Part shown: positions 309 to 51,150 of the stretch, piece after piece | Layout: each line of letters begins with the position of its first letter | Numbering within the stretch: the first letter of the stretch is position 1 | Assembly (NCBI GenBank): GCA_039096225.1 | Contig: JBBPEB010000024.1 | Span: 248,001-312,000 of the forward strand | Direction: 5' to 3' | Source of the DNA: Blastocystis sp. Blastoise | Taxonomy: Eukaryota; Sar; Bigyra; Opalinata; Blastocystidae | Length of the DNA stretch: 64,000 bases | The notes under the pieces: model-generated | Seen by the model: only the letters and a program-made list of their open reading frames with translations | What the model was told of the DNA's origin: nothing | Databases searched by the model: none | Translations under genes and position numbers: made by a program

Positions 309-326
309 GAACCTTCTAGAACATTC
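309..326. promoter_or_regulatory. Heat-shock-element array, 4 units
   Basis: GAA-TTC-GAA-TTC at exact 5-bp spacing, about 110 bp upstream of the 207-aa start. It sits between two divergent genes, the 207-aa gene and the 175-aa gene continuing off-window. A CCAAT sequence lies just before it at about 298. The same array is conserved at 45512-45529. Confidence 0.7.
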
Positions 327-437
327 CATAGAGATTCTACACTGTCTCCTAGAATATTTAATATTCCATTTAAATGTATTATTTATTTCATTTTGATAAA
401 TACAAATTTTCTCTCTGTAACGATATTCGCGATTATA

Positions 438-1061
438 ATGCAATTTAATCTTTCTGCTGATTCCCGTAAATGTCTTCAAACTGTTCGTATGGAACTTCTA
501 AAGAATTCTAAGAAGGCTGTTGAAGTTCATAAGAATGTTCTTCGTGATATTGATTTACATCAGTCTCAATTGAATAGAGAAAAGAATCTATTGGGTATTG
601 CAAAATCTAAAGAACGTCTTGCTTCTTTCGAAGTCGAAAACTATAGATCAGCTTTAAAACGTATAAACGCGGTTATTAAAGGTCTTGAAGATTATGAAGA
701 ATTCGCTGCTGATATTTATACTCAACAACTTAATGAAGAACAAGATATTCAAGATATTATCAATACTGAAGATCTTTTAGAAAGTGATAGAACTACTATT
801 TTATGTTCTGAAGATTCTAAAGAACATTCGAATTCTCAAGATGATGATTTTGATATTATGAAATTCCATATGGAAGATGGATTCCTCTATGATGAAAAAG
901 GTAAAGTTTATTCTTATGAAGTTGTTCATGCTAAGAGTATTAACAAGATTAAAAGAGATCCTTCAAAACAAATGTATTTCTGGGATGGTATTTTATATGA
1001 TAAGAATGGATGGCCTCATTCATGTACATATATTAATAGTCAAGAACCAATTGAAATTTAA
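438..1061 (+). CDS. Viral early-type protein, 207 aa, unknown function
   Basis: Family not recognised. The first ATG of the open frame is at 438; upstream codons are open but start only at TTG. The first 110 residues are rich in Lys, Glu and Leu and look helical, followed by an acidic stretch. The C-terminal part has two copies of a short motif, DGFLYDEKG and DGILYDKNG, about 55 residues apart, which suggests a small tandem beta-module. The gene has a heat-shock-element array upstream and the 3' motif TTGTTTTGTT 60 bp after the stop. A second intact copy is at 44777-45400. Its place beside the primase gene, with the same promoter type, suggests an early regulatory or replication-accessory role (inference). 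Confidence 0.75.
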   Translation: MQFNLSADSRKCLQTVRMELLKNSKKAVEVHKNVLRDIDLHQSQLNREKNLLGIAKSKERLASFEVENYRSALKRINAVIKGLEDYEEFAADIYTQQLNEEQDIQDIINTEDLLESDRTTILCSEDSKEHSNSQDDDFDIMKFHMEDGFLYDEKGKVYSYEVVHAKSINKIKRDPSKQMYFWDGILYDKNGWPHSCTYINSQEPIEI

Positions 1062-1120
1062 TTATTTTTCTTGTTTATTTTTCTATTTTTACTTATAAAC
1101 TTGTAAAAAATCATTGAAAA

Positions 1121-1130
1121 TTGTTTTGTT
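1121..1130 (+). terminator. Viral 3'-end motif after the 207-aa gene
   Basis: Exact TTGTTTTGTT on the sense strand, 60 bp after the stop codon. Confidence 0.55.
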
Positions 1131-1171
1131 TATTGTATATACATTTAAAACACTAAAGTATAAAAAGGATG

Positions 1172-1219
1172 TTCTAGAAGGTTCTAGAAGGTTCTAGAAT
1201 GTTCTCGAAGGTTCTAGAA
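1172..1219. promoter_or_regulatory. Heat-shock-element array, 10 units
   Basis: Ten consecutive TTC/GAA half-sites, each exactly 5 bp from the next, with no mismatch. A TATAAAAAGG sequence lies immediately before it (about 1160). This is the first of two such arrays ahead of the primase-helicase gene. Confidence 0.8.
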
Positions 1220-1253
1220 CATTTAAAAATATAAAGTAATATTTACTATTATA

Positions 1254-1301
1254 GAATGTTCTAGAAGGTTCTAGAAGGTTCTTGAATGTTCTAGAAGCTT
1301 C
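1254..1301. promoter_or_regulatory. Heat-shock-element array, 10 units
   Basis: Ten consecutive half-sites from GAA at 1254 to TTC at 1299-1301, in perfect 5-bp register, and a further TTC-GAA pair at 1312-1319. It lies 87 bp upstream of the primase-helicase start. Copy 2 keeps the array at 44537-44584. Confidence 0.8.
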
Positions 1302-1321
1302 CAAAACTGACTTCTAGAATC

Positions 1322-1334
1322 TTTAATATATTAT
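1322..1334 (+). promoter_or_regulatory. Shared early core motif of the primase gene
   Basis: TTTAATATATTAT preceded by TAGAATC. Nearly the same sequence occurs at the same distance before the 124-aa gene (49564-49576), and related motifs precede the 175-aa and 197-aa genes. It is plausibly the core promoter used together with the heat-shock elements, but it is AT-rich. Confidence 0.4.
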
Positions 1335-1387
1335 TTGTTTTAAATGTTGTATTATAATTATTTTCATTATTTATAAGTCAAATAATC

Positions 1388-4300
1388 ATGGAAAATTCAC
1401 AAATTCATTTTGTTTATACTTTTGGTTCCTTTAATCATGATAATTCAAAAGATAATCATAGTGAAATTATTATACCAAATCCATTACCATTTTATAAAAG
1501 TCTATTTACTAATTATCAAAATCCAAAAGAATTATTACATTATATTGATTGTACTCCTTGTAATACATCAACTAATTATAGAAGATTATGGTTTGATTTA
1601 GATTATCACCAAATATCTGATGATTTTTCTTTTCTAACAGATTCTTTTATTCATGAATTTATTGAAGAAATATGTAATCATTGTATTCATTATTATAATC
1701 AAGAATTTATTTCGCTTGTGTATACAAAGAAAGAAGTGAATAAGAAGACAGTTCATAATGAAATACATTATTCATGGGGAATTCATATATATACGAATTG
1801 GTTTGTAAATGGTGATTATTTATTTTTCTTATATAATAGTATGATTCTGAATACCAAATTGGTTGATTTATGTAAAACATATAATTTAGATATAAAAGAA
1901 TTCATTGATTATAATGTTATTGGTAAACCCAGAAAGAATAATGGTTGTATGTTTCTTGGTTGTAGTAAAGATAATTCTCCATCTACTTATAAATTATATG
2001 AAGAATATACCAATAAAACATGGAAGAAAATAGATGATGAAATCGATGAACATTATTATTTCAAAACATTATTGAATTATAAGAATGAAGATGATCTTAT
2101 AAGTGATATTATTAATCCTATTATCTTTTCTAAATTAAAACAATATTCACGTTATAAACGTTATTATGCAAGATTAAATAATTGTTCACGTACTATATTA
2201 TGTTCTATACAAGATATTAAAGATATTCCTATGTTGATTTCTACAGATACTATATTGGATACTACAGCATCTAAAGAAGCTTTATTAGAACGATATTTAT
2301 TATTGATTGGTTCTATTGAAGATATGAATTATTTTGAATCTCATAATACTTGGTATAAATTATGTTGTGCAGCAAAACAGATTTGTAATACAACAAGAGG
2401 ATTAGAATTATTTAAAAATTATTCATTACGTTATGGTCATGATCGAAGTGATGATGTAATTGAATCTACATGGAATCATATACAAGTTGATCCTACTCAT
2501 TTATCGAATAATTATATTTTAAAGATATTAATGGAGAATAAATTATTTAATAAAGATGATGATAATGATTTCATATTTATGTCTATTTTAGAATGTATTC
2601 AATCCTTTAATCTTGTAGATTCACAAACATTAGTTATGTTATTTCAATTATTAGAATTTAATGAAATTGTATCTATTATATTAGATAAAGATAATTTTAT
2701 CTTATATACATTTGATGAATATAATATCTTAAGACGTTGTAAGAATAATTATGATATTAATTTCTTTGAAACCAAAATAACTACATTTATGAAATCGATT
2801 GTAGAGAAATTCAAACTATCAAGATTATATTCCAAAGAGAATGAACAACATCAAAAAATAGTTGATAAAATAATGTCTGCTTCTGTTACTAATGAATATC
2901 ATTATAAAGAATGGTTGAATCGTTATTTGAAGACTTATGGTAAATCTTATAAAGAATATTTAGATACGTATATGGTTCATAAAGAACGTGTTATCTATAC
3001 ACAACTTGGTTATTTATATCCAAAAGAATCTACAGAAGAAGATCCTAGACAATATTATATCCAACCATATCATAAAGAAGATATGGTGTTTGAAGATTTA
3101 TTAATTGATACTGAATTTAATGTAAGTTGGAATATTAATAATGAACAGAAAGATATTATCCAATTATTTGAACAACATATTGCAAGATATTGTGAATTCG
3201 ATAAGAAATATGAAAGTATTATGTTACGTATTCTAACCACTGCTTTCTATGTCAATACTCAGAAAACAGTTTCTTATATATTATATGGTAGTACAGGTAG
3301 TAATGGTAAAACAATAACAACTGATTTAATTTCTCGTATTGTAGGTAGTAATCAATGTATTATAGTAAATCCAGATAATTTAGAAGAAACATCTATAGCT
3401 CCTAAGATTGTAGATATGTCTAATAAAACAATGTATTATATGAATGAATTAATAGAAGAAGATGTTACTGGTAGAAAGAAAACATTTAATCCATTCTCTT
3501 CTAAAGTCTTTAAAGAAATAGCAGAAAAGAAAGAAGGTGCTAGTGCTCGTAAATTATTCAGTAATATATTTACAAAAGTTCATTTCACGGGTACTTTATT
3601 TATGACAAGTAATATCCAACCTACTGCTGTGAATGCTGGTCCTATTGAAAGAAGAGTCTGTTTCTTACCATCATGTTGTCGTTATTTCCCTCCTGGTAAT
3701 GCTAATTTATATGAAGATTATGTAGATCATAATTTACCGAAACGTAAACAGACAGTAGAAAAGAGATTGAAACCCAATCATTATGAAATGGATTATACTC
3801 TATCTGATAAATTCTATCAGAATCGTTCTATTATCTTTAGTTATCTAGTAAGTAATTATTTCTATTCTAGTATGCAATTAGATATGCATGAATTAGATAA
3901 TGAATATCATATAAGTGAATGTAAGAAACGATTCTTTGATCGTAGTACAGAAGGATATGATTTGAAATCTTTTGTTGATAACCATATTACTATAGATCCT
4001 TATTATTTGAATGTAGTTACTATTGAAGATATTTTTAATAGTTATAAGAAAGTGAATAATAATAATCAATTTACGATTAAGAAAGATTTAGATAAATTTA
4101 CAAATGCTTTATTTGGTTGTTTAAGTAGTAAAGATACATTTAATTCTATAGATATTGTGAATATTCATAGAAAACATACTTCAAATTTCTATAAGGGAGG
4201 GAATGCTATTGGTATTTGTGGTTTAATGATTGATAATACTTATAATGAATGTGTGGATACAGATTTATTCTGTTTATCCAATTGTTTATCTAAGAAAGAA

Positions 4301-4390
4301 GAAATTGTTTATAGTGAAGATCAATATCATAATACGTCATCAACAAAACGAATTTTAATAGATAATACTTTATATGCTATACCAAATTAA
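1388..4390 (+). CDS. Primase-superfamily 3 helicase (AEP-D5-like), 1000 aa
   Basis: This is the replication protein. The N-terminal half carries archaeo-eukaryotic primase hallmarks: WFDLDY (residues about 68-73, the metal-binding DxD) and HYSWGIHI (about 127-134). The C-terminal half is an SF3 helicase with Walker A GSTGSNGKT (about 634-642), Walker B around MYYMNELIEE (about 682) and motif C GTLFMTSN (about 735), whose Asn is the SF3 sensor. The length is normal for PLV and giant-virus fusions of this type. It should prime and unwind viral DNA. With no viral PolB in sight, a host polymerase probably extends (inference). The promoter region carries over 20 heat-shock half-sites, and the 3' motif follows the stop. 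Confidence 0.93.
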   Translation: MENSQIHFVYTFGSFNHDNSKDNHSEIIIPNPLPFYKSLFTNYQNPKELLHYIDCTPCNTSTNYRRLWFDLDYHQISDDFSFLTDSFIHEFIEEICNHCIHYYNQEFISLVYTKKEVNKKTVHNEIHYSWGIHIYTNWFVNGDYLFFLYNSMILNTKLVDLCKTYNLDIKEFIDYNVIGKPRKNNGCMFLGCSKDNSPSTYKLYEEYTNKTWKKIDDEIDEHYYFKTLLNYKNEDDLISDIINPIIFSKLKQYSRYKRYYARLNNCSRTILCSIQDIKDIPMLISTDTILDTTASKEALLERYLLLIGSIEDMNYFESHNTWYKLCCAAKQICNTTRGLELFKNYSLRYGHDRSDDVIESTWNHIQVDPTHLSNNYILKILMENKLFNKDDDNDFIFMSILECIQSFNLVDSQTLVMLFQLLEFNEIVSIILDKDNFILYTFDEYNILRRCKNNYDINFFETKITTFMKSIVEKFKLSRLYSKENEQHQKIVDKIMSASVTNEYHYKEWLNRYLKTYGKSYKEYLDTYMVHKERVIYTQLGYLYPKESTEEDPRQYYIQPYHKEDMVFEDLLIDTEFNVSWNINNEQKDIIQLFEQHIARYCEFDKKYESIMLRILTTAFYVNTQKTVSYILYGSTGSNGKTITTDLISRIVGSNQCIIVNPDNLEETSIAPKIVDMSNKTMYYMNELIEEDVTGRKKTFNPFSSKVFKEIAEKKEGASARKLFSNIFTKVHFTGTLFMTSNIQPTAVNAGPIERRVCFLPSCCRYFPPGNANLYEDYVDHNLPKRKQTVEKRLKPNHYEMDYTLSDKFYQNRSIIFSYLVSNYFYSSMQLDMHELDNEYHISECKKRFFDRSTEGYDLKSFVDNHITIDPYYLNVVTIEDIFNSYKKVNNNNQFTIKKDLDKFTNALFGCLSSKDTFNSIDIVNIHRKHTSNFYKGGNAIGICGLMIDNTYNECVDTDLFCLSNCLSKKEEIVYSEDQYHNTSSTKRILIDNTLYAIPN

Positions 4391-4428: not shown

Positions 4429-4434
4429 TTAAAA

Positions 4435-6231
4435 TTAATAAAATTTAAATTGTATTCCATGAAAATGTTTTTTAGGGACTTTGACTTTAAAGAATGCATT
4501 ACTTTTATGTTTTTTCAATAAACCATGACCACGATGAATAGGTTCTAAAGGAGGCATAGTAGAAAGACTACGTAATGCATAAGTATCTGAATTATTCATA
4601 ACTATAGGTGTAGAATTTTCATCTTGAGTATTCTGTTGCATAAGAGATGCTTGTGTATTCGTTAATTCTGAATCCGTTGTATTATTATGTAAATGATCAG
4701 GTAATAATTGTTTATTACGTATAAAACGATTATAACGATCTCTAGAATTCTCTGGAACTTCTTCAGATTCTAATGAACATCCTACAGGTAATTCAGTTTC
4801 TAAATCGTTTTTATCTGGATAATGATGCTTTAATAGATCTTTATAATATCTTAATGTAATCATTATAGTATCATTATCTGATGAATATTGTTCTAATGTA
4901 GATAATATCGATTCTGATTTCATATTGAAATTCTCTTTACCAAATACATCTTCATAGTCTTCATCATATTGTTCTATACGATCATTAAATCGTTTACATA
5001 AAAATAATAATTTATTCAATTGATTAATTTCTCTTGTATAAGTAATATTATTCATATCAATATGAAATATTCTTGTTTTATTATCTAAATCTTGTAATTT
5101 AGTTGAATGAGAAGATAAATAAGGAGATATATAATTTTCCATATGTGTTGATTGACTATGTAACATCTTCATAATCGAATTTTCAAAGAGTTCTACACCT
5201 TTAGATTCATGTTCTGAATCATTATGTTGGAATTGTGCTTCTCTTGATAATCTATAATAATATTGAGCAAATAAATGTCTTATAATATCACAACCATTAA
5301 TTAAAGAATTATTCTGTTGTGTTTTATAAATCCATCCTAAATGAGGTTTTATATATTCATCACCAAATTTCAAATCACGTACTTTACCACCATTCTCAGT
5401 AACAAATAAATAATGTCTTGGAAATAAACGTAAGGATCTAGCTAAGACATTTAAATATTCTTCTGATAAATACTGATAAGTAGGATATTCATTCTTACCA
5501 ATTTCAAATCGATTCTTTGTATCATTCACATGAATAGTCAAAGTATTTAAATCAATATAATTGGTTGTTCTTCTTAACGATAAAGGAATTTGTTGACCAC
5601 GAGTATAGATTACACAATCATTATAATCATTACGAGCACATAATGTATCATAAGTTAAAACTAATAAATAACTATTCACATAATATAAATCATTAGGATT
5701 CTCTAAATAATTCTTTTTGGTGATATTAATGATTTCTCCCCAATCAGCTTCACAATTAATAATTTTCTGAGTGATTTCATAATGTCTTGAATAAGTAGCA
5801 TCAATTTGTAAAGAACCCCATAAATGTTCCCATTTCTTTATATTTTGTGGAGTAAATGCTTTATAATTAATGATATCTTCATCATCTGTACAAATAGATA
5901 TATTCTTCATTATATAAGTAATCATTTGCATATAATTAGCTACAGTAGTATTGGATAATCCACCTTGTTGTCCAGGAGCTTCTGTTTGTGTATGTTGCAT
6001 AACATTTTGAAATTGAAATGGATCTGTTAACACTTCTACACAAAAGAATGGTTCTTCCATATCATCTATTTGAATTCGTTCTTCATTACGAAATTTCTTA
6101 CATATTGTCTTTATCCATTTCTTCCAATTTATACTTGTTGATAATTGTATTTTCTTCCAATGTAATAATTGATCTATACAATTTGTAAAGAATTCTTCAC
6201 AATCTTTATCTGAATAACCTGTTGATTGCAT
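4435..6231 (-). CDS. Tyrosine recombinase-like protein, 598 aa
   Basis: The C-terminal catalytic fold is readable from residues: Arg200 in CARNDY, a possible Lys in DTKNRF (about 239), Arg318-His319 in IIRHLF, His358 in MLHSQ and the nucleophile Tyr367 in HMENYI. The order and spacing are those of tyrosine recombinases. It is a second, divergent enzyme beside the one at 50079-51014. About 230 extra residues after the catalytic Tyr, rich in Asp, Asn and Thr, are unusual and may be a separate domain. It could resolve concatemers or hairpin ends, or be an alternative integrase. There is no heat-shock array upstream, unlike the other recombinase. Confidence 0.75.
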   Translation of the reverse strand: MQSTGYSDKDCEEFFTNCIDQLLHWKKIQLSTSINWKKWIKTICKKFRNEERIQIDDMEEPFFCVEVLTDPFQFQNVMQHTQTEAPGQQGGLSNTTVANYMQMITYIMKNISICTDDEDIINYKAFTPQNIKKWEHLWGSLQIDATYSRHYEITQKIINCEADWGEIINITKKNYLENPNDLYYVNSYLLVLTYDTLCARNDYNDCVIYTRGQQIPLSLRRTTNYIDLNTLTIHVNDTKNRFEIGKNEYPTYQYLSEEYLNVLARSLRLFPRHYLFVTENGGKVRDLKFGDEYIKPHLGWIYKTQQNNSLINGCDIIRHLFAQYYYRLSREAQFQHNDSEHESKGVELFENSIMKMLHSQSTHMENYISPYLSSHSTKLQDLDNKTRIFHIDMNNITYTREINQLNKLLFLCKRFNDRIEQYDEDYEDVFGKENFNMKSESILSTLEQYSSDNDTIMITLRYYKDLLKHHYPDKNDLETELPVGCSLESEEVPENSRDRYNRFIRNKQLLPDHLHNNTTDSELTNTQASLMQQNTQDENSTPIVMNNSDTYALRSLSTMPPLEPIHRGHGLLKKHKSNAFFKVKVPKKHFHGIQFKFY

Positions 6232-6790: not shown

Positions 6791-9277
6791 TTATATATAA
6801 GAGATAGTTAATAAAACAACACAAGGATAATCACATGTTATAAAGAACATATTATCATGAGGTAATAACTTTAATAATTTACGATTACAATAATAGACAT
6901 TCTTATTGATCTTATTTGATATACCTTCATATTTAATACCATTAGAATAGTAATAAGGTAGATTTGTAGTATCTATAACATGAATATTATTCTCATATTC
7001 ATTAGTAAAGCATCTTAATGAAATAGGATATAAGTAATCAGTGGATTGACCATACACTGATATAATTTGTATATTCGTTAAGTATTGATATCCATAGACA
7101 TTGGTTTTCTTCAATTCATAAATTAAATTCTTACTCGTACTAAAATCACAATATACTTCATCATAAGCTTTGAAACGTATATCACTACCATTCGGTTCAC
7201 ATATATTACAAATTATATTTCCTTTGAATAATTCATCAAATCTTAAATCTATATGATGATCAATTGTAATTGGAGAATTTATATTACTATAAGTAACATA
7301 TTTATCAGATAAAGGAAAACTAAATGTAGGATAATAAGATCCATTTATATATCCAGTACATAATTTAGATGCATTTGCTTGGATTGTATCTGTATCATTT
7401 TGAATAATAATATCTTTCAAGATCTTATTTTGAATATTCAATGTAGGATATTCAGCATAGAACTGTGTGTCTGATGTTTGACAATTCAAACATAATTTCT
7501 TAATGGTTTCACTTGGTTGAATCGTATCGACTGTATCTGAGAATTCTAAGAATCCTCTTAAAATACAATTATTATTGAAATTCACATATTGTTTATTTTT
7601 ATCAGTATATCGTATAATAATATCTTGAATAGTATTTAAATAAGGAGACACATTAATATTCATAATATCATGAAATTCATTATTGCCTTTATAATTATTC
7701 ACATTAAATGAATATAAAGAATTCTGACTATTATCTACTATATTCGATTGAGCTATTAACATTCCTTTTGGACGACTACTATCAATATTATGAACACCAT
7801 AATTAATAATTTCATCATAACCTAATTTATTATAACCTAAGATTTCACCTAATTCTTGAGCTTGAGAAAAATCTATATGATAACTATCAGTATAACACTT
7901 ATAATTACCATCTAAATCTAATGTATTCAAATCAACAGGTATACCTGATAATAATTGTTTACCATAAGATACATGCCAAGCAAAACATCCTTGTTCATCA
8001 TAAACCAGATCAGGTCGTATATTATGTAGAGCACCACGATACTTAAATAATGAATGTTCTATATCTGTGGCTGTAAATGTCCATGAACTTGAATTATAAT
8101 CGTTGTACGTTATTAAATACAAAATATAACCCTCTTTATCACCGTGAGTTTCTACATCTTTTGATATAGTTAAATTACATACCTCAATAGATCCATTGAT
8201 CGTATTTTCTAATAAATCATAGAATTCTTGTTCAGTATATTCTCCTGGAGGCATTGTGTATGTAGTTTCCATTCGACCACCCATTCCACTTATTTGTCGA
8301 ATAATCATTGTATTATATCCATCTTCAACTCTAATGTATGTTTTGATATTAAATATATTATCATCTTTAACTGGATTCTTAATTCTTTGTAAAACAATTT
8401 CTGGTTTATTTTCAGTGTATATTAGTGTTTCATTACCGTCAAATAAACCAGTAAATAAACTATTTTCCATTTTCAGAATCATATTTATATTTGGAGAAGT
8501 TACATCTGGAAAATAAAAATCATGTTCTGCATTAGTTACACATTCAATTGTTCCATCACTACTTTGTGTAGGAATATCATGAATGAACTTACTAAATACA
8601 CCGCTATTTGCATATTCTTTTAATGAATAAGTCCCTGTTGTTGTAACAGGAATATTAAAAGAAGTTGTTTTGGGTTTATATATGGTTATAGTATCATCAT
8701 CATATTTCATCATCAGTCGATTACAGTTATCTAACCATACAGAAGATACCAAACAAACAGCGATCCACCAAAATTCTATATCTGTATACGTTCCTTTTGG
8801 GAAATTAAAACCACGTCTTGTTTTAGCAATATGAAATTCACAATAGAAATCATCTGTATTTATTGTGACTGTTGGAATCTTAATATATTGAATAGTAGGA
8901 TCAATATCAGGAGATTCTTTTATTACTGGTCTATCACATATATCAAAATGACATAGTTCTAATAATTGTGGAATGGAATAATTTTTCTGATCTAAAGTGA
9001 TTGTATATACGGAACTATTACCATTGACACGAGTATTTATATATTTGAATATTTGTGTTTTTGTGAAAGTATCAAATAGAGGCACACTTTCACTACCAAT
9101 TAAATTAAGATCAATATAAGAAATGATATTTTTAGTGATATCAATAGAATTCGATAAATGTATATTGAATTGATTATCAATACAACGAACATCAATAGGG
9201 ACTACATGTGTTTTAATACGAGTATCCTTCTCTTCTAATGAAGTCTGTTCTTCTTGATTATCTTCATCAAGTTCCAT
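6791..9277 (-). CDS. Penton-like multidomain capsid protein, 828 aa
   Basis: The N-terminus (QFNIHLSNSIDITKNI) resembles that of the 221-aa penton candidate at 12330. A motif of the form G-x-Y-[ST]-x-x-[EQK]-[FLY] recurs: NFPKGTYTDIEF, TTTGTYSLKEY, TMPPGEYTEQEF and a weaker KNYSIPQLLEL. The penton has FPAGNYSLEEF. The protein thus looks like several penton-type beta modules fused, followed by a long beta-rich tail. It could form a vertex spike, fibre or minor capsid component (inference). It is transcribed divergently from major capsid protein 1 across 95 bp, which lack the TTGTTTTGTT motif. Confidence 0.6.
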   Translation of the reverse strand: MELDEDNQEEQTSLEEKDTRIKTHVVPIDVRCIDNQFNIHLSNSIDITKNIISYIDLNLIGSESVPLFDTFTKTQIFKYINTRVNGNSSVYTITLDQKNYSIPQLLELCHFDICDRPVIKESPDIDPTIQYIKIPTVTINTDDFYCEFHIAKTRRGFNFPKGTYTDIEFWWIAVCLVSSVWLDNCNRLMMKYDDDTITIYKPKTTSFNIPVTTTGTYSLKEYANSGVFSKFIHDIPTQSSDGTIECVTNAEHDFYFPDVTSPNINMILKMENSLFTGLFDGNETLIYTENKPEIVLQRIKNPVKDDNIFNIKTYIRVEDGYNTMIIRQISGMGGRMETTYTMPPGEYTEQEFYDLLENTINGSIEVCNLTISKDVETHGDKEGYILYLITYNDYNSSSWTFTATDIEHSLFKYRGALHNIRPDLVYDEQGCFAWHVSYGKQLLSGIPVDLNTLDLDGNYKCYTDSYHIDFSQAQELGEILGYNKLGYDEIINYGVHNIDSSRPKGMLIAQSNIVDNSQNSLYSFNVNNYKGNNEFHDIMNINVSPYLNTIQDIIIRYTDKNKQYVNFNNNCILRGFLEFSDTVDTIQPSETIKKLCLNCQTSDTQFYAEYPTLNIQNKILKDIIIQNDTDTIQANASKLCTGYINGSYYPTFSFPLSDKYVTYSNINSPITIDHHIDLRFDELFKGNIICNICEPNGSDIRFKAYDEVYCDFSTSKNLIYELKKTNVYGYQYLTNIQIISVYGQSTDYLYPISLRCFTNEYENNIHVIDTTNLPYYYSNGIKYEGISNKINKNVYYCNRKLLKLLPHDNMFFITCDYPCVVLLTISYI

Positions 9278-9372: not shown

Positions 9373-10845
9373 ATGAGAATCTTAAGAATTAAAGATAATA
9401 TTCCTATTCAAAGTGATACTGATATTCTATCAAGTCCTTATATCTTTCAATATCATTGGACTAATGTGGATAATACTTATATCAATTTCAATCAATCCTA
9501 TTTGGATCTTACTGTCAAGGCAACTGTCACAGATAAAGCTGGACCAGTTTCTGTTTATTTAGATGAAACAGGTACTTCTGTTAGTTTCACTTATGATCAA
9601 TTATGTCAATATTTCTTGGATCAATTAGTTCAAAAAGCAAATATTTATTCTATTATTGATTCCACTGATGTTGAAATGGTTTATACATTACCTGATGGAT
9701 CTGATCGTGCTTTGAAATATGAAGAAAACTGTACACATGCTTCACGTGGTCGTAAAATGATTTTATTAAAAGATATCAGTAAGAATGATTTAGAAAAATC
9801 TATGTATGGTGAAGATTTATCTGCAGATACTTATGAATTGAATTCTATTCGTTATATACGTGCACATCCAAAACAATCTATTCATATTGCTATTCCTTTA
9901 TATCTTATTAGTGGTTTAGGTGTTGATGGAGATTCTTTAATATTAACTAAACATTTCAATATGTTATTTAGAACTAGTACTATTGAATCCTTAATTGATA
10001 ATAATATGAGTATTTATTTCAAGAATGGTGGTAAAGATCTATCAACACAATGGTTACATCTAACTGATGAAAAATGGTTTAAGACATTTGAATTGGAATC
10101 AGCTACTATGAATTTAATGACTTATAAAGATATTCAATTCCAAACGAATGAATTATATAAAACTATACCTACATGTATTCAAGTCGATTATCAAAATACA
10201 AGAATAACTAGTGATCATTTCAATATCAATAGAGCTTTACCATTTATACCTGAATATATATTATACTGGTTTACAAATGGGTATAGTTCAACAACTATTA
10301 GTAATGTAGCTAGTCCATCTGTATGGCCTAAATATCAAAGTTGTTTGATTGGTGATGTTCAAATGTTCCCTCAAACTGAATTCCCTACTCAAATGTATTA
10401 TCATAATCTTACTACTAAAGGTCATGTCTTCAATAATGAAGAAACTGCTAGTTTATCTTGTCCTAATAAAAATCTATATTGTTTATGGGCTGATAATTCA
10501 AATCCTGAAACTATTCTTAAATATGATGAATGGATTAAACATCCTATTTATATTATTCCAACTAAAGCATTAATGAATATCCAATCAGATAGTGGTATAG
10601 AAATGAATTTTGATTGTAATCTAGATGTTCATGATATTGAATATGGTCATGCTAATTCATCCACTGTTCCTGATGGATATACATGTACATATAATGAAAC
10701 TACTAAAATATGGACACCTGACACTGGTGCTTCTTATGCCGTTGCTTCTCATGCTGGTATTTATAAACATATTAATACTGAACTAAATGAGAAGCATCCT
10801 TATACATTACATATGATTGCTGTACGTAGTGTACGTGATATTTAA
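9373..10845 (+). CDS. Major capsid protein 1, double jelly-roll type, 490 aa
   Basis: The N-terminal pattern typical of PLV/adintovirus hexon-like capsid proteins is present: a strand followed by DNTYINFNQSYLDLTVKATV. It is clearly paralogous to the protein encoded at 11016-12239. Shared blocks include SIID, the KDISKNDLEKSMY region, IPLYLISGLG near residue 180, and the FVPDY/FIPEYILYWF and PIYIIPTKAL blocks. It carries an insert near residues 50-75 and a longer C-terminus than its paralogue. It would form capsomers, possibly hetero-oligomers with MCP2. Calling both major capsid proteins rests on pattern and context. Confidence 0.8.
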   Translation: MRILRIKDNIPIQSDTDILSSPYIFQYHWTNVDNTYINFNQSYLDLTVKATVTDKAGPVSVYLDETGTSVSFTYDQLCQYFLDQLVQKANIYSIIDSTDVEMVYTLPDGSDRALKYEENCTHASRGRKMILLKDISKNDLEKSMYGEDLSADTYELNSIRYIRAHPKQSIHIAIPLYLISGLGVDGDSLILTKHFNMLFRTSTIESLIDNNMSIYFKNGGKDLSTQWLHLTDEKWFKTFELESATMNLMTYKDIQFQTNELYKTIPTCIQVDYQNTRITSDHFNINRALPFIPEYILYWFTNGYSSTTISNVASPSVWPKYQSCLIGDVQMFPQTEFPTQMYYHNLTTKGHVFNNEETASLSCPNKNLYCLWADNSNPETILKYDEWIKHPIYIIPTKALMNIQSDSGIEMNFDCNLDVHDIEYGHANSSTVPDGYTCTYNETTKIWTPDTGASYAVASHAGIYKHINTELNEKHPYTLHMIAVRSVRDI

Positions 10846-11015: not shown

Positions 11016-12239
11016 ATGGAAGGATTCCCAAGACAATTCTTACCTTCAAAGGCAAATCAAACTATTAAACCTGTACAAATTCCTATTCTGGTTTCTACTA
11101 GTCAGGATTTATTAAATCAACCTTATCCATTTGAATTCTTATATAATTCAGTTGATAGTCCTTTTATTGATTTCAGCAATTCATTCTTAGAACTGAATTT
11201 CAATATTACAACAAATGCAGCAACATCTAGTTCTGTTGTACAACATTCTAATATCTATAGTATTATTGATAAGATTACTACAGATCTTACGTTTGTATCT
11301 CCTACGGGTCAAGATATTCTTATTAATTATTCTGAATCTTCTATTGAATCCAGTAAAGCAAGAAAATTTGTTACTATTAAAGAATTAAGTAAAGATGAAA
11401 TTGATAAATCTATGTATAGTATGACAGAATGCTTATATAATACAACCTTAAGTAGTATTTCTGGAATGCAAAGTTCTACTAAAGCTCAAGTTATTATTCC
11501 TTTATCTCTTATTACTGGTCTTGGTACATTTGATTGTGCTATTAAAGTAAAATCTTTGAAGATGCAATTCGTTACAAATTATTTAAAGAATCTATTTACA
11601 GGTACGACTAAAATCACTGCATTAACTTTTGATCGTGTTTATATTCATCTTCAACAAATCTATGATATTAATTTTGGTAATGATCCACGTGCTTTGATTA
11701 AATGTATTCCTAATAATTGTCAAATATCTGCATTTACTACACCTGTTTATTCAGAAACATTCACAACAGCAGGTAAACCAACTCCACAACAATTCTTATC
11801 CAATAGAAGTGTTGTTTTCGTACCTGATTACTGTATGTTATATTTTACAACTCAAGAGAAGAGTATGATTCCTATTAAGACTGAATTATTGAAGATGTGT
11901 CAATTCCAAATTGGTGGTCAAAATATCTTACCAAAGACGGATTTCCCTACTACGTATAAAACAACGAATCCATCACAAATTATTCCTAATGCTATGCTTT
12001 ATAATACTTGGAGATGTAATAGTCATCCTCAATCTCCTTTAAACGGTGAGAAATGGTATGAACAACCTATTTATATATTCCCTATTTCAAGTGTTGTTGA
12101 TGTCAATACTCGTAGTGGTTGTGAAGTTAATATCTCCTTATTAACTGAATATAATGGTGCAAATATTACTAGTGGTACTTATACTTTATATGCTCATTTT
12201 ATATTTGTTAAATTTGTTAGAGATGGTGCAACCAATTAA
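11016..12239 (+). CDS. Major capsid protein 2 (paralogue of MCP1), 407 aa
   Basis: The signature DSPFIDFSNSFLELNFNIT at residues about 50-70 matches MCP1. KELSKDEIDKSMYSM, IPLSLITGLG and QPIYIFPISSV align in the same order. The protein is shorter by about 80 residues, mostly in loops and at the C-terminus. Two adjacent, full-length, diverged capsid genes suggest two capsomer types or a heterotrimer. The start has no close in-frame rival. It is followed by the 3' motif and the penton gene on the same strand. Confidence 0.8.
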   Translation: MEGFPRQFLPSKANQTIKPVQIPILVSTSQDLLNQPYPFEFLYNSVDSPFIDFSNSFLELNFNITTNAATSSSVVQHSNIYSIIDKITTDLTFVSPTGQDILINYSESSIESSKARKFVTIKELSKDEIDKSMYSMTECLYNTTLSSISGMQSSTKAQVIIPLSLITGLGTFDCAIKVKSLKMQFVTNYLKNLFTGTTKITALTFDRVYIHLQQIYDINFGNDPRALIKCIPNNCQISAFTTPVYSETFTTAGKPTPQQFLSNRSVVFVPDYCMLYFTTQEKSMIPIKTELLKMCQFQIGGQNILPKTDFPTTYKTTNPSQIIPNAMLYNTWRCNSHPQSPLNGEKWYEQPIYIFPISSVVDVNTRSGCEVNISLLTEYNGANITSGTYTLYAHFIFVKFVRDGATN

Positions 12240-17711: not shown

Positions 17712-17882
17712 TTAAAAATCAATAAAATTCTTGATATAATCTTCATATTCATCATCTTCACTTACAGTATGAAAACTGTCCATATCAGAATCACTATCAC
17801 TTAATTCATCAACTTCAAAATTTCCATAAGGTTTCCAAGTACCTTCTTTATAATCTGGAGCAAATTGCTTTGGAGAATCCAT
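17712..17882 (-). CDS. Small acidic viral protein, 56 aa
   Basis: The ATG at 17882 begins MDSPKQFAPDYKEG; the upstream extension lacks a better start. The sequence is strongly acidic with an SDSDSDMD run resembling a casein-kinase-2 target, and ends in a hydrophobic-acidic tail. It reads out of the terminal repeat, and an eight-unit heat-shock array lies 47 bp upstream, mirroring the recombinase gene at the other end of the virus. It may be a small early regulator (inference), although such a short acidic frame could also be chance. Confidence 0.45.
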   Translation of the reverse strand: MDSPKQFAPDYKEGTWKPYGNFEVDELSDSDSDMDSFHTVSEDDEYEDYIKNFIDF

Positions 17883-17928: not shown

Positions 17929-17966
17929 TTCTAGAAGTTTCGAGAATGTTCTAGAATGTTCTAGAA
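17929..17966. promoter_or_regulatory. Heat-shock-element array, 8 units
   Basis: Eight perfect half-sites at 5-bp spacing at the inner edge of the terminal repeat. In copy 2 the equivalent stretch is extended to ten units and faces the recombinase gene. Confidence 0.75.
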
Positions 17967-44536: not shown

Positions 44537-44584
44537 GAAGCTTCTAGAACCTTCTAGAACCTTCTAGAACATTCAGGAACATTC
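44537..44584. promoter_or_regulatory. Heat-shock-element array, 10 units (copy 2)
   Basis: Counterpart of 1254-1301, still with ten perfect half-sites although the primase gene it served is gone. Confidence 0.75.
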
Positions 44585-44618: not shown

Positions 44619-44666
44619 TTCTAGAACCTTCGAGAACCTTCGAGAACCTTCTAGAACCTTCTAGAA
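44619..44666. promoter_or_regulatory. Heat-shock-element array, 10 units (copy 2)
   Basis: Counterpart of 1172-1219. Base changes occur only in the spacer pairs between half-sites. Confidence 0.75.
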
Positions 44667-45511: not shown

Positions 45512-45529
45512 GAATGTTCTAGAAGGTTC
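45512..45529. promoter_or_regulatory. Heat-shock-element array, 4 units (divergent promoter, copy 2)
   Basis: GAA-TTC-GAA-TTC between the divergent 207-aa and 175-aa genes. CCAAT-type sequences lie nearby at 45536 and 45609. Confidence 0.7.
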
Positions 45530-46405: not shown

Positions 46406-46521
46406 TTTCAAATAGAATTCTTGAATGGTCTAATGGATCTATTAAAGAAATATGTAACCACAGTATCATGGTTCGATTCCGTTAAAATGTTTCCATTAGA
46501 TTATTCAAGTGTTCTTTTTTT
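46406..46521 (+). ncRNA. Candidate Pol III small RNA inside the virus
   Basis: The A-box TGGTCTAATGG (46426-46436) and B-box GGTTCGATTCC (46470-46480) both match the tRNA-promoter consensus, spaced 33 bp apart. A T7 terminator follows at 46515-46521. The ends pair over 18 bp (46420-46437 with 46492-46509, including two G-T pairs), enclosing a loop of about 54 nt. The region does not fold as a proper tRNA: no anticodon arm, and about 23 nt between the T arm and the acceptor. It sits in a gene-free gap between two viral genes and directly ahead of a heat-shock array. By layout it recalls adenovirus VA RNA (analogy only). Confidence 0.6.
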
Positions 46522-46567
46522 CTAGAACCTTCTAGAACCTTCTAGAACCTTCTCGAACATTCTGGAA
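46520..46567. promoter_or_regulatory. Heat-shock-element array, 10 units
   Basis: Ten perfect half-sites, 78 bp upstream of the 197-aa start. A TAATATATTAGTAT core-type motif follows at about 46594. Confidence 0.8.
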
Positions 46568-46644: not shown

Positions 46645-47238
46645 ATGTCTACAACTGAATTTAAAAAACCTACTATTCTTGATACTTCTAACTTTAATTT
46701 ACAATGGGATGACACCAAAGAAAATGCTGTTCTTTTAAATAATAATCATCGTGTATGTATTTCTACTGATGCTACACCATGTTTATTTGGTTATATTGTT
46801 ACACGTGATAAATGGACTTTATTAACAATTGAAGATGATAATCAAGTATTCTTAACTGCTTATAAAGAACTTTATCGTAAATTATGTGAATTATGTCCTG
46901 ATGGTGATATTGTTAATTTTGTACGTATGGATAATGGTAAGTATAAGATTACAATTAAAGTACCTATTAATGCATCGAAGAATGTTACTATTGATATTAC
47001 TGATAAAAGAGATAAGAAGATTAATATCGGTAAAGATCCTAAGTTAACTTACGAAGAAATACGTGAAAAGTATATTCCACCAAATACGTTATGTAAAGTA
47101 TTATTTACAATACATGGTATTCATCGTTATAATAACAAGTATTATATTGGTTTATATGCTCGTTCTATTAAAGTCATCGATAAATCTACGAAGAATACTA
47201 ATAGTAATGATACTATTATTGATTTAACTAATTTATAA
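46645..47238 (+). CDS. Possible ssDNA-binding protein, 197 aa
   Basis: Compact beta-rich protein. The C-terminal half (PPNTLCKVLFTIHGIH then NNKYYIGLYARSIKVI) looks like the last strands of an OB-type fold as in viral ssDNA-binding proteins, and the chain ends in an acidic-hydrophobic tail (DTIIDLTNL), a common partner-docking tail. There are no enzyme motifs. The heat-shock promoter groups it with primase and recombinase, which favours a replication role. The family call is tentative. Confidence 0.55.
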   Translation: MSTTEFKKPTILDTSNFNLQWDDTKENAVLLNNNHRVCISTDATPCLFGYIVTRDKWTLLTIEDDNQVFLTAYKELYRKLCELCPDGDIVNFVRMDNGKYKITIKVPINASKNVTIDITDKRDKKINIGKDPKLTYEEIREKYIPPNTLCKVLFTIHGIHRYNNKYYIGLYARSIKVIDKSTKNTNSNDTIIDLTNL

Positions 47239-47313: not shown

Positions 47314-48942
47314 ATGCAAAGTTGTATATTAGGAATGCCAAGTCCTGGTACTTTTGGTATGAATTTAATTTCAACTGGAAAAGAATATAGGCGATATAAT
47401 ACACAACCATTACATAAAATGGATCAATATAATCCAATATTTCATGAAATAGGTCCAAATTCATCTATGCCTGTGTCTACTTTAGAAAGTAAAGAAATAC
47501 ATGATGGTAAAGAAGATGATTATGTAGATCGCTCTAAAACATTTGGTAAAGATGCTGTTCCACAAGGAAATGGTGCTTTAATTCGTGCTAGAGCAGCAGG
47601 TAAAGGTGTAATGAAAGCAGCTGGTCCAGAAGAAGATAAAATAGATGGTGAAGATCGTCAATATAAAGTATTAAATCCATGTAAACCAAGACGTAAATCT
47701 GGTAGAGGAATTATTCCAAATAAATCAGAAATCAATAAATTAGAGAATAATCAAGGTTCTGGTATTGGTGATGCAATTAAAAATAAAGTAAAAAATATGT
47801 ATCAACGAAATGTATTAGATATAAGAGATGCTATTGTAGATAAAAAAGCTAATAGAAAAGCTCGTGATGCATTAGCTATTTTAGCTCAATATGTTGGTGA
47901 CGGTCATCATGATCTTGATGATGAATTCAAAAGATTCTATGAACATAAAATAAAACGTGGTGGAAAAATTCCTATATCTGTTGCTTCAGCAATTATGAAT
48001 GCAATTAAAAATAAGAAAATGATTAAGAATCCAAAATTAAGAAGAATGTTAAGACCTTCAATTATACCAAAATATATAGATTTAGATTCAGCTCAAAGTG
48101 GTGATGGTATATTAAGAGTAAAAAGAGGTGGTGGATTCTGGAGCGGATTAATGGATTATGCACCAGCTCTATTAGGTGTAGTTGATAAAGGTATGGATTC
48201 TTTTGCTAAAGGTAGAAAAGCTTATTATGATACACATTTGGCACAACAATCAAGTGAATTAAATGATATGGAATTTGAAATGGAAAAATTAAAACGTCAA
48301 CAAGCATTAAATGAAATGAAAAAGCAAATAGGTTCAGGAAATACAATAAATAAAATGTTTGAAGGATATTATGATGTAGCTGATGAAATGCAAGATGCTC
48401 TTGATGAAGATGATAGACTACATCCACAACCCGTTGTTCAACCTCCACCACCTCCACAACAACAAGTTGATCGACCTCCTCAATCTCAACCTCCTCAACC
48501 TTATAAACCCATGTCTCGTGATGAACAAAGTTATTATTATAAGATTTATGGTTTCCCTCAAAATGATAAAGAAAAAGTCGATAGAAAATGGAAAGAAGAT
48601 GAAAGGGATAAACGAATAGCTGCAAGAAGAGCTAAACGTAGAGGTTATGGTGGTCGAGTTAAATTAAGTAAAGAAGAATTCTTAGAACGAATGAGAAGAG
48701 GAAAAGAAGCTAAAAAGAAAAGAGGTGGTGATTTGAATCCATTAGTATCATTTTATACAGATTTTATAATACCTGCAGGAGTGGCACGAAAAAAACGTAA
48801 AATACAAGAGGCTGATTTAAAACAATTACAAATTATAAAACAGAAAAGAGATAATAATGAAACATTAAATGCAGGTGACGAATTGTTTTGGAAAAAAAAG
48901 AAATATATGTTATCAAAAAACTCAGGGGAGGGGATCTGGTAA
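47314..48942 (+). CDS. Glycine-motif virion precursor, 542 aa
   Basis: It shares the N-terminal motif TGKEYRRY...IGPNSS with the 494-aa protein. It is basic and rich in Gly-Gly. Candidate processing motifs are KSGRGI, NQGSGI, QSGDGI, IGSGN and NSGEGI, plus several RGG. A Pro/Gln linker (PPPPPPQQQ, residues about 376-386) separates two Lys/Arg-rich halves. The last zero-frame codons overlap a slippery A_AAA_AAC site that leads to the protease frame. It is probably a core or scaffold precursor (inference). No heat-shock array lies upstream, so it groups with the late genes. Confidence 0.7.
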   Translation: MQSCILGMPSPGTFGMNLISTGKEYRRYNTQPLHKMDQYNPIFHEIGPNSSMPVSTLESKEIHDGKEDDYVDRSKTFGKDAVPQGNGALIRARAAGKGVMKAAGPEEDKIDGEDRQYKVLNPCKPRRKSGRGIIPNKSEINKLENNQGSGIGDAIKNKVKNMYQRNVLDIRDAIVDKKANRKARDALAILAQYVGDGHHDLDDEFKRFYEHKIKRGGKIPISVASAIMNAIKNKKMIKNPKLRRMLRPSIIPKYIDLDSAQSGDGILRVKRGGGFWSGLMDYAPALLGVVDKGMDSFAKGRKAYYDTHLAQQSSELNDMEFEMEKLKRQQALNEMKKQIGSGNTINKMFEGYYDVADEMQDALDEDDRLHPQPVVQPPPPPQQQVDRPPQSQPPQPYKPMSRDEQSYYYKIYGFPQNDKEKVDRKWKEDERDKRIAARRAKRRGYGGRVKLSKEEFLERMRRGKEAKKKRGGDLNPLVSFYTDFIIPAGVARKKRKIQEADLKQLQIIKQKRDNNETLNAGDELFWKKKKYMLSKNSGEGIW

Positions 48943-49034
48943 AGAGTAAAGATGAGAAATTAATTCAAAATTCAATGAATTGCGATAATCCTATTATATC
49001 TGATAAAACTCGTCATGTTACTCCTAGATCCCCT
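48915..49034 (+). promoter_or_regulatory. Candidate -1 ribosomal frameshift signal
   Basis: The heptamer A AAA AAC (48915-48921) is in exactly the zero-frame register needed (codons TCA AAA AAC). After a 7-nt spacer, 48929-48937 (AGGGGATCT) can pair with 49026-49034 (AGATCCCCT), extended by GG/CC across one bulge. The zero-frame stop is at 48940-48942. The -1 frame leads straight into the protease frame, which lacks an early ATG. Confidence 0.75.
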
Positions 49035-49508
49035 GATAATTTCAAACAAACTCTATCTCAATATTGTAATATACCCAATTCTTTAATATCTCAATTATAT
49101 AATTATGCTTATTTAAATAAACCTACCTCTTCTGTTGCTTGTGATCGTGCTGAAAATGTTATGAAACAATTAAATAAAACGAATTCTCAATCTTATAATT
49201 ATTATAATAGTTATGATGATTTTGAACAAAATATAGATCAAGATCAAACTAAATTTAATATGATCTTTCATGAAAGTCCTAGTGATCCTTATAATGGTCA
49301 TTTTGAAGCTGTTATTTATAATGGTAATAAAAACATAGAACACTATTCATCATTAGGAAATGAACCTACTTTTTCAAAATCATTTATTCAAAATCATAAT
49401 ATTCAATATAATCCTATTCAACACCAAAAAACTACAAGTAATGCAAATGGTTGCTTTTATTATTCTTTACTTTATTTACTTTCTAATGGAAATCTTATGC
49501 CTTGTTAA
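48921..49508 (+). CDS. Adenain/Ulp1-like cysteine protease, -1 frame extension of the 542-aa protein
   Basis: The catalytic pattern is His in NGHFEAV (codon 49299), a polar partner near IEHYSSLG, an oxyanion Gln in IQHQK, and Cys in NGCFYYSLLYLL (codon 49452). This is the order and spacing of adenovirus-protease/Ulp1 enzymes. The frame overlaps the 542-aa gene in -1 and its first ATG is only at 48975, inside the region after LRGGD. It may therefore be made as a fusion by frameshifting, perhaps with release at LRGG, or from the internal ATG as a 177-aa enzyme. It would mature the glycine-motif virion proteins. Confidence 0.72.
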   Translation, partial: LRGGDLVKSKDEKLIQNSMNCDNPIISDKTRHVTPRSPDNFKQTLSQYCNIPNSLISQLYNYAYLNKPTSSVACDRAENVMKQLNKTNSQSYNYYNSYDDFEQNIDQDQTKFNMIFHESPSDPYNGHFEAVIYNGNKNIEHYSSLGNEPTFSKSFIQNHNIQYNPIQHQKTTSNANGCFYYSLLYLLSNGNLMPC

Positions 49509-49512
49509 AACC

Positions 49513-49535
49513 TTCTAGAATATTCTAGAACATTC
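49513..49535. promoter_or_regulatory. Heat-shock-element array, 5 units
   Basis: TTC-GAA-TTC-GAA-TTC in 5-bp register between the protease stop and the 124-aa gene. Confidence 0.7.
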
Positions 49536-49563
49536 ATTTTGAACTGGCTCTATTTGTAGAATC

Positions 49564-49576
49564 TTTAATTTATTAT
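49564..49576 (+). promoter_or_regulatory. Shared early core motif of the 124-aa gene
   Basis: TAGAATC followed by TTTAATTTATTAT, nearly the same as 1322-1334 and at the same distance (54-55 bp) from the ATG. Confidence 0.4.
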
Positions 49577-49598
49577 ATTAGTGTTTTATATAATTAAT

Positions 49599-49608
49599 TT
49601 GTTTTGTT
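49599..49608 (+). terminator. Viral 3'-end motif after protease
   Basis: Exact TTGTTTTGTT, 91 bp after the protease stop. This is the longest stop-to-motif distance, and here a promoter array intervenes. Confidence 0.5.
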
Positions 49609-49630
49609 TAATCATTGGTTAATTTAAATA

Positions 49631-50005
49631 ATGAACAAGAAATATCTTAGTTATTCTTATTTTTGTCGTGTGATGAAGAATCTAAAAGAAGAAGGAATTA
49701 AATCCAAAAAGAATGAAATAGCGAATCTATTAGAACAATTTTTAAATAATAATAACAACAAGAATCTTAGTGATTTGCAATTGAGTTACTGTAGAAACAT
49801 GTTACTTTATATAGATGATCCTGTGATTCATCAACGTCTTGAAATGCTATTGGATAAACAATATATGAAGAATGAGAATCAATATCAAGAGGATAAGAAT
49901 CTTATTCAACCAAATAATATGTTTATGCCAACTATGAAAAGTAATCAACAACAAAATCAATATCAAAATAATAATAATAATCTATCTTTCTTACCTTTTA
50001 ATTAA
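49631..50005 (+). CDS. Viral protein, 124 aa, unknown
   Basis: Family not recognised. The first 85 residues are helical and basic with regular Leu (YFCRVMKNLKEEG and onward), and the rest is Asn/Gln-rich and probably disordered. A five-unit heat-shock array and the early core motif lie upstream, so it belongs to the early-type group with the neighbouring convergent recombinase. A DNA-binding accessory or regulator is possible (inference). Confidence 0.6.
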   Translation: MNKKYLSYSYFCRVMKNLKEEGIKSKKNEIANLLEQFLNNNNNKNLSDLQLSYCRNMLLYIDDPVIHQRLEMLLDKQYMKNENQYQEDKNLIQPNNMFMPTMKSNQQQNQYQNNNNNLSFLPFN

Positions 50006-50052
50006 TTTTTATATCCTTTTATTACTAGTTGTTTAGTTATATTCAAAATTAA

Positions 50053-50062
50053 AACAAAACAA
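50053..50062 (-). terminator. Viral 3'-end motif after the recombinase
   Basis: Minus-strand TTGTTTTGTT, 17 bp after the recombinase stop, in a convergent gap with no minus-strand gene directly beyond it. Confidence 0.6.
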
Positions 50063-50078
50063 ACATAAAAACATAAAA

Positions 50079-51014
50079 TTATTCAATTAATTTTTTAAAT
50101 AAATTATTATTTTCTAAAGATACATAAGAATTAATATGTGTATAATCATTATGACATAAAGCAGAAGCAGAATTTTCTATATCTTGAAATGTATTGGTTG
50201 TAGTTGTAGCATATAATTTTCTTAATGCATTAATGGTCAATTTTGGATGGATTTGTTTTAAATGCTTATTCACAAACCAATCAAATGCTTTAGTAGTAAA
50301 TCCAGTTCGTACAGAAGATTCAAATATAAATTTACGATTTGGATTTCTTTTTAAGAGTAATTCTAGATCTTCAATCAATTCTTTTGGTGCATCTAATTGA
50401 ATTGTAGAGTATTTACCAGCAGTTTTATAATCATTTAATAGAATAGAACCAGTATGTTTCTCTTTATCATAAACAATATAATTCTTATGAATAGCTGGAT
50501 CAATAGTATCTTCTGGTGATAGAATGAATAATTGAGCATAATCAGCACGAGCAGGAGGAAGATAGGAGTAAAAATCTAATATTAATCGTAATGGATTATA
50601 ATTTTCTAATTTATCGTGATATTCATGTAAATATGGAGTCGTAATACCATCTTTAATAAGATCTTGAATTAAAGTACGTTTCTTATTATCCAGATATTTT
50701 TCATACATTGAATTGATAATCACATAAAATTCACACCATTTATTCAAAATACCTTCTTTATTTAATGAAGAAACATTACGTATAATAAATAAAATCAATT
50801 CACATAACGATTTCATTGGACTAATTTTGATTTTACGTTCATTTACCATATAATCCATGAATGAATAAGGATTCTTTAAGAATTCTGAGAACTTTTTAAA
50901 TGGTAATGGGAAAATATATAAATTGAAATAATTAGTTAAACGTTTTTTCCAAATATCAGAATAATTTGAATTCTGTATAACCAAAAGATACTTGTCATAA
51001 TTTGTATTTTTCAT
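50079..51014 (-). CDS. Tyrosine recombinase / integrase, 311 aa
   Basis: ATG at 51014; the four upstream codons begin only with TTG. The catalytic set is Arg in PPARADY (residue about 156), Lys in DYKTAGK (about 197), Arg in NALRKLY (about 265, with Lys where His is usual), His in ALCHNDY (about 288) and the nucleophile Tyr in HINSYVSL (about 297). This is the PLV/virophage integrase type. It lies next to the terminal repeat with a ten-unit heat-shock array upstream, so integration or excision may be stress-linked (inference). Confidence 0.88.
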   Translation of the reverse strand: MKNTNYDKYLLVIQNSNYSDIWKKRLTNYFNLYIFPLPFKKFSEFLKNPYSFMDYMVNERKIKISPMKSLCELILFIIRNVSSLNKEGILNKWCEFYVIINSMYEKYLDNKKRTLIQDLIKDGITTPYLHEYHDKLENYNPLRLILDFYSYLPPARADYAQLFILSPEDTIDPAIHKNYIVYDKEKHTGSILLNDYKTAGKYSTIQLDAPKELIEDLELLLKRNPNRKFIFESSVRTGFTTKAFDWFVNKHLKQIHPKLTINALRKLYATTTTNTFQDIENSASALCHNDYTHINSYVSLENNNLFKKLIE

Positions 51015-51102
51015 TGATTTTCTCAAGTAGAATCTCTAAAACTTCTATTTTCAAAAGAATAATACATAAGAAAATCAAAATAAAATATCTAAGATTCTCA
51101 TG

Positions 51103-51150
51103 TTCTAGAATGTTCTAGAAGTTTCGAGAATGTTCTAGAATATTCTAGAA
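51103..51150. promoter_or_regulatory. Heat-shock-element array, 10 units, recombinase promoter
   Basis: Ten perfect half-sites starting 89 bp upstream of the recombinase ATG and overlapping the inner edge of the terminal repeat. Confidence 0.8.

Follow-up and report, generated by a model that had tools for sequence, protein, structure and literature searches.

Heat-shock-element arrays upstream of replication and accessory genes suggest host heat-shock factor control of an integrated polinton-like virus in Blastocystis

Introduction

Mobile elements driven by heat-shock elements (HSEs) are already known. In the Dictyostelium retrotransposon DIRS-1, the inverted terminal repeats contain a heat-shock promoter (Zuker et al., 1984, as cited in PMC2685390), and the plant retrotransposon ONSEN is described as heat-activated (PMC8376061). 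Animal viruses have also been tied to heat-shock factors or heat-shock elements, among them gamma-herpesviruses (PMC12047821) and bovine leukaemia virus (PMC10236774). How integrated protist viruses leave dormancy is understood in few systems, for instance in the Cafeteria virophages that answer a giant virus. Among the endogenous mavirus-like elements of Cafeteria, a response to the inducer is reported for the type that carries the promoter motif of this inducer (PMC10945749). Here we describe an integrated polinton-like virus (PLV) in a 64-kb stretch of the 33.3-Mb genome of Blastocystis sp. Blastoise (C23:248001-312000, referred to as the window; coordinates are those of the window unless a contig or locus is named). 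Arrays of HSE form stand upstream of six of its genes, including those for a primase-helicase and a recombinase-like protein, and none was found before its capsid and packaging genes. In the library searched, no publication joining polinton-like viruses with heat-shock elements was found, and nothing on Blastocystis polintons beyond a citation in one reference list.

Results

Perfect arrays of heat-shock-element form

The window contains parts of two virus copies. Copy 1 extends from approximately C23:241590 (L027:3590) to window position 18828, and copy 2 (44461-52012) is inverted and cut. The whole 64 kb were searched with a script for maximal perfect alternating GAA/TTC runs at 5-bp spacing. 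All arrays listed in a preliminary description of this DNA, together with their counterparts in copy 2, were recovered base for base, with identical coordinates and unit counts.

In copy 1, the 175-aa and 207-aa genes are divergent and have a 4-unit array (309..326) between them, which precedes the start codon of the 207-aa gene by 112 nt. Two 10-unit arrays, a (1172..1219) and b (1254..1301), are located upstream of the primase-helicase gene, b being 87 nt upstream of its ATG. The right terminal inverted repeat has an 8-unit array (17929..17966) at its inner edge, which precedes a small acidic gene by 47 nt, and this site likewise has 8 units in three further virus copies. Copy 2 holds the counterparts of array b (44537..44584, 10 units), array a (44619..44666, 10 units) and the 4-unit array (45512..45529, 4 units). 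It also carries a 10-unit array 78 nt upstream of a 197-aa gene (46520..46567), a 5-unit array 96 nt upstream of a 124-aa gene (49513..49535) and a further 10-unit array (51103..51150), which occupies the inner edge of the terminal inverted repeat and precedes the start codon of the recombinase-like gene by 89 nt. The arrays at 17929 and 51103 represent one site in the two terminal inverted repeats. Copy-1 counterparts of the last three arrays are located to the left of the window, at L027 positions 9271-9318 (for 46520), 6063-6085 and 6290-6307 (for 49513) and 4448-4495 (for 51103). In the region upstream of its 124-aa gene, copy 1 apparently contains a direct duplication (L027:5988-6343), with a 5-unit and a 4-unit array; the same region of copy 2 has a single 5-unit array.

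The only further run of at least three units in the 64 kb consists of 3 units at 40270-40282, and positions 1302-17928 contain no run of three or more. In total, 11 runs of three or more units, 10 of four or more and 8 of five or more were observed; when the window was simulated 100 times with a second-order Markov model, the means were 1.9, 0.04 and 0.00. The ten perfect arrays of 4-10 units are not chance. An HSE consists of at least three inverted nGAAn units at 5-bp spacing, and the textbook HSE form attributed to these arrays earlier is borne out by their exact alternation, 5-bp spacing and 4-10 units.

Genes with and without arrays

Six start codons have an array that ends 47-112 nt upstream, which by coordinates is a proximal promoter position. 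The genes concerned encode the recombinase-like protein (311 aa), the 124-aa, 197-aa and 207-aa proteins, the primase-helicase and the small acidic protein, in agreement with the assignment in the preliminary description. The 175-aa gene has the 4-unit array at -287, in common with the divergent 207-aa gene. In the 400 bp upstream of 12 other genes, the best match to a 4-unit array had 3-5 mismatches of 12, a match equalled by 38-100 of 100 shuffled sequences. These array-free genes include both capsid paralogues, the ATPase, a 206-aa protease-like gene and a 598-aa gene. The earlier statement that no array precedes the capsid or ATPase genes is therefore upheld. The distribution fits a division between a replication and accessory class and a virion class, with the 598-aa gene as the one exception. 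That integration genes carry arrays, as had also been proposed, applies to the 311-aa recombinase-like gene but not to the 598-aa gene, which is recombinase-like by motif alone.

No promoter motif was established for the non-HSE gene class. The sequence TGTTTTGTT precedes 9 of the 12 genes in this class and occurs 11 times in the window part of copy 1, where 0.48 occurrences are expected. It was rejected as a late-gene promoter, since it lies 18-92 nt past the stop codon in 15 of 19 genes (for example at 4419, 12289 and 13037), HSE genes included. TGTTTTGTT is likely a 3'-end signal akin to the Blastocystis polyadenylation element TGTTTGTT, which it resembles (PMC4159000, PMC5608401).

Conservation of the half-sites between virus copies

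About 20 copies of the virus are present in the genome, with 99-100% identity between their primases. Five array sites were compared between copies. Primase arrays a and b and the 207-aa site were each followed in 20 copies, and the 197-aa and left terminal-repeat sites in 21. Over these sites, 886 of 890 half-sites in 102 arrays are intact. This includes all 200 half-sites of primase array a (20/20 copies, 8-14 units), all 186 of array b (20/20 copies, 8 or 10 units) and all 80 at the 207-aa site (309-326, 20/20 copies), as well as 212 of 214 at the 197-aa site (46520-46567, 21 copies) and 208 of 210 at the left terminal-repeat site (51103-51150, 21 copies). The four broken half-sites represent two changes, and a single pair of copies on C15 has both of them.

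Among the 1836 core bases of 306 complete 10-bp units, 2 deviate, whereas each of the four spacer positions is variable, the commonest base accounting for 59-86%. The sites are pooled in this count, so some of the spacer variation is variation from site to site, and the count omits 10 of the 21 terminal-repeat copies, in which the outer flank did not match the anchor. The terminal repeats of the 21 copies have two types of outer flank (mean pairwise identity 0.71, minimum 0.47), and in the arrays of the same copies identity is 0.994 for the cores and 0.924 for the spacers. Because the half-sites are intact while spacers and unit number vary, the half-sites look selected, and this contrast between core and spacer is the stronger evidence.

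Distribution of the arrays in the genome

The 5-unit pattern has 584 matches genome-wide (290 + 294) and a reversed-pattern control has 0. Of the first 100 matches in contig order, which were listed, 91 are on contigs C1-C14; 85 of these are in three virus copies and the other 6 carry the exact 23-mer of one transposon. Equal array density in other DNA, named in the preliminary description as a result that would speak against its reading, is not what these listed C1-C14 matches indicate. A hand count placed 496 of the 584 matches in virus arrays, among the first matches listed or with the transposon 23-mer, and the right terminal-repeat and 124-aa arrays of the other copies would give approximately 75-80 of the remaining 88 if they have the usual unit number. 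The transposon array has 5 units and is located about 110 bp upstream of the open reading frame (ORF) of a DDE_1 transposase gene (L001:1-1523, C3:801207-802729). The exact 23-mer of this array is present at 7 places in the genome, and at two more with one half-site changed. One of these seven places (L001) was examined, and the others are presumably further copies of this transposon.

No relative outside this genome was obtained when IMG/VR was scanned with the ATPase, a primase alignment and a capsid alignment, or when the capsid was used to scan contigs of bacteria and archaea. A protein database contains relatives of the capsid protein on ENA/lgn contigs, most of them 55-63% identical. A 7-unit pattern matched 9 stretches in IMG/VR, none of which was recognised as a PLV from the array-adjacent ORFs alone. 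An IMG/VR contig with 62% GC carries a perfect 10-unit HSE-type array (L105:4004-4051).

The heat-shock system of the host

A genome family search for the heat-shock factor (HSF) type domain (PF00447) gave matches on C4 and C25 only, and none in the virus. The C4 match scores 111.5 bits and has no internal stop. Compared to the PDB, the C4 domain matches HSF2 with an E value of 7e-20; the best-scoring entry (E 1e-20) has no name beyond 'putative transcription factor'. For HSP70, 36 genome matches were obtained and the upstream regions of five full-length loci were checked. Three of the five have short upstream elements: two of 3 units at L011, one of 3 units at L012 and one of 4 units at L014. 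The five TTCnnGAA spacers in these elements are all TA or GA, like most viral units, and 6 of 24 such spacers in the non-viral DNA of the window are TA, GA or TC. This likeness between the viral arrays and the HSP70 elements is suggestive only. The non-viral part of the window (37 kb) contains one run of 3 units.

The virus, its genes and its surroundings

The element is an integrated polinton-like virus of approximately 25.2 kb with 900-bp terminal inverted repeats. It combines a double-jelly-roll major capsid protein, a packaging ATPase and terminal inverted repeats with the genome size of this group, polinton-like virus genomes being some 15-40 kb long. No Pfam match to a protein-primed PolB or a retroviral-type integrase was obtained for the 27 of 34 window ORFs of at least 100 aa that were scanned, and the element is not classed as a Polinton/Maverick proper, which would have both. 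The right terminal inverted repeat of copy 1 (17929..18828) is 98.8% identical, in inverted orientation, to L027 3587-4485, and the terminal inverted repeat of copy 2 (51113..52012) is 98.4% identical to 17929-18828.

Array-bearing genes of copy 1 are the 207-aa gene (438..1061, plus strand), the 1000-aa primase-helicase gene (1388..4390, plus strand) and the small acidic gene (17712..17882, minus strand; 56 aa from ATG). The primase-helicase matches the PHROG DNA primase family (E 2.2e-9) and scores 34.3 bits with TIGR01613, under the cut-off of 108.7. In copy 2 the array-bearing genes are the 197-aa gene (46645..47238, plus strand), the 124-aa gene (49631..50005, plus strand) and the 311-aa recombinase-like gene (50079..51014, minus strand). 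The latter was assigned from a motif seen by eye, and its product has no Pfam, PHROG or usable PDB match. When the 197-aa protein was aligned with neighbours of divergent primases (3 sequences), identity was 19-24%, giving no safe function.

Genes without an HSE are the 598-aa gene (4435..6231, minus strand), the 828-aa gene (6791..9277, minus strand), the gene for the 490-aa capsid paralogue (9373..10845, plus strand), the gene for the 407-aa double-jelly-roll major-capsid-like protein (11016..12239, plus strand), the packaging ATPase gene (13064..14101, plus strand) and, in copy 2, the 206-aa protease-like gene (48888..49508, plus strand), which was assigned by eye and has no PDB match. The 598-aa protein has a conserved R-H ... 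H ... Y pattern, recognised by eye, and on this motif alone its gene may encode a second recombinase; a structure model from two sequences was too poor (mean pLDDT 32) and was not used. The 490-aa and 407-aa proteins are 28% identical (E 8e-40). The ATPase matches the PHROG terminase large subunit (E 1.2e-10), and its Pfam DEAD match is under the cut-off. No usable match was obtained when the capsid, primase, recombinase-like, ATPase and protease-like proteins were searched against PDB sequences. The nearest predicted viral structure to the capsid protein is that of MELD virus sp. (BFVD A0A8S5L5M3; TM 0.66/0.64, E 2.4e-17), which shares only 14% identity with it.

Arrays of a 29-bp repeat (18829-19341 and 24970-25571; L027:3426-3588) adjoin both ends of virus copy 1 and also border a reverse-transcriptase element (19347-24539). 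Copy 1 looks as if it had been inserted into or beside the 29-bp repeats of this element. The window further contains a Helitron-like helicase ORF of 1557 aa (28729-33402, minus strand) and a 62-bp satellite array of 10.6 copies (37329-37995).

Discussion

The form, position and conservation of the arrays make it probable that they are heat-shock elements through which host HSF would drive the primase-helicase, the recombinase-like and four small genes. Separate promoters would serve the capsid and packaging genes. In this model active host HSF would bind the arrays cooperatively. With 8-14 half-sites, several trimers could bind together, which would give strong and steep activation whenever HSF is active, be it by stress or by infection. 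The bound arrays would switch on the primase-helicase, recombinase-like and accessory genes, and the virion genes, with their different promoters, would come on afterwards via another route. HSF binding, induction and the equation of the HSE class with an early class are inferred from the DNA, which suggests that cell stress may turn on the early genes of the virus.

Several observations weigh against this interpretation. The early class is assumed from the kind of gene, and the recombinase-like 598-aa gene lacks an array. A second HSF-type match, on C25, scores 56.2 bits and has two stops within it, due to an intron or decay. The comparison with host heat-shock promoters proposed in the preliminary description succeeded in part, with elements of the same inner spacers at three of five HSP70 loci; no upstream element was found at the HSP70 loci L013 and L015, nor in the upstream stretches examined of the HSP90 loci L058-L060. 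Other host loci, 54 kb in all, contain 7 runs of 3 units, of which some lie in duplicated or overlapping loci and inside coding sequence. Elements of 3 units are thus not rare, and the HSP70 elements are weak evidence. Differences between virus copies near the primase are small (1.1% pairwise in the coding sequence, just 1.5% and 4.8% in the two flanks), therefore the copies are young. In the terminal-repeat array, moreover, the inner 40-bp flank (0.993) is conserved to the same degree as the cores, and the preservation of the cores is thus due in part to this youth. Finally, the preliminary description proposed to look for the same arrays in related endogenous viruses. Within this genome, none of the six divergent PLV loci with a primase of 40-45% identity shows a run of three or more units upstream of that gene, and those inspected have other repeats there, so that the arrangement is not general to PLVs. 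C13 and C14 each contain one divergent PLV primase, with none of the listed matches nearby.

A variant of the HSF interpretation is that HSF binds constitutively, in which case the arrays would act as strong general promoters in growing cells and not as a stress-run latency switch. Basal activity of HSF is known in several eukaryotes. The 99-100% identity of the 20 primase copies points to a recent spread without a demonstrated link to stress, and the results presented here do not tell constitutive use and induction apart. We regard constitutive use as unlikely, with a weight that is still appreciable.

The chief rival is a DNA-binding protein of the virus itself, a regulator or an iteron-like replication initiator, whose site would resemble the TTC/GAA half-site by coincidence. 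In its favour, two of the arrays lie within terminal repeats. Divergent PLV loci in this genome, too, have repeats directly upstream of the primase, but of unrelated sequence: 52 bp x 4.6 at L048:1138-1401, and 71 bp x 2 together with 11 bp x 4 at L051:1212-1451. PLVs may thus share an architecture in which some repeat array, of any motif, precedes the primase. The L048 repeat holds TTCCGGAA pairs, which are too short to call. Lineages would then differ in the motif upstream of the primase, perhaps not in architecture. However, we estimate that a random palindromic half-site would be TTC/GAA in about 1 in 64 cases, and exact 5-bp alternation would be rarer still. The inner spacers agree with those of the host HSP70 elements, in small numbers, and the arrays precede start codons at six places instead of marking a single origin. 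The same kind of element is present at the unrelated transposase gene, and the HSF-type domain search found nothing in the virus. A viral protein is therefore a distinctly improbable explanation. The least tenable reading, a functionless drifting 10-bp minisatellite, would account for unit numbers of 8-14 in two-half-site steps, as expected from slippage, but is contradicted by the contrast between cores and spacers, which slippage would not leave behind, and by the one core at all array sites and the restriction of arrays to positions upstream of genes, and its probability is close to negligible.

If host HSF acts on the arrays as preferred here, it is quite conceivable that host stress moves a dormant virus from silent inheritance to replication via an early regulon of HSE arrays, a eukaryotic parallel to SOS-induced prophages; we put this forward tentatively. 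The proposed cue would be encoded in the DNA of about 20 copies, readable by a known host factor and confined to a defined class of genes. It also bears on the effects of gut stress on Blastocystis genomes, because a transposase gene there has the same kind of element.

Compared to the systems known so far, the virus resembles ONSEN as a heat-activated mobile element in a eukaryotic genome, its own heat response being proposed from sequence; ONSEN has no virion genes that could split into classes. DIRS-1 is a retrotransposon, whereas the Blastocystis element is a DNA virus with capsid genes and with arrays before six genes, four of them away from the terminal repeats. For the gamma-herpesviruses and bovine leukaemia virus, the available parts of the publications describe no multi-unit arrays over a gene class. 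The mavirus-like elements of Cafeteria are, like the Blastocystis virus, small integrated viruses of a protist. In Cafeteria, the inducer is reported to be a giant virus, the motif being the late promoter of that virus, whereas in Blastocystis the motif would be a stress element of the host and would mark the non-capsid class of genes.

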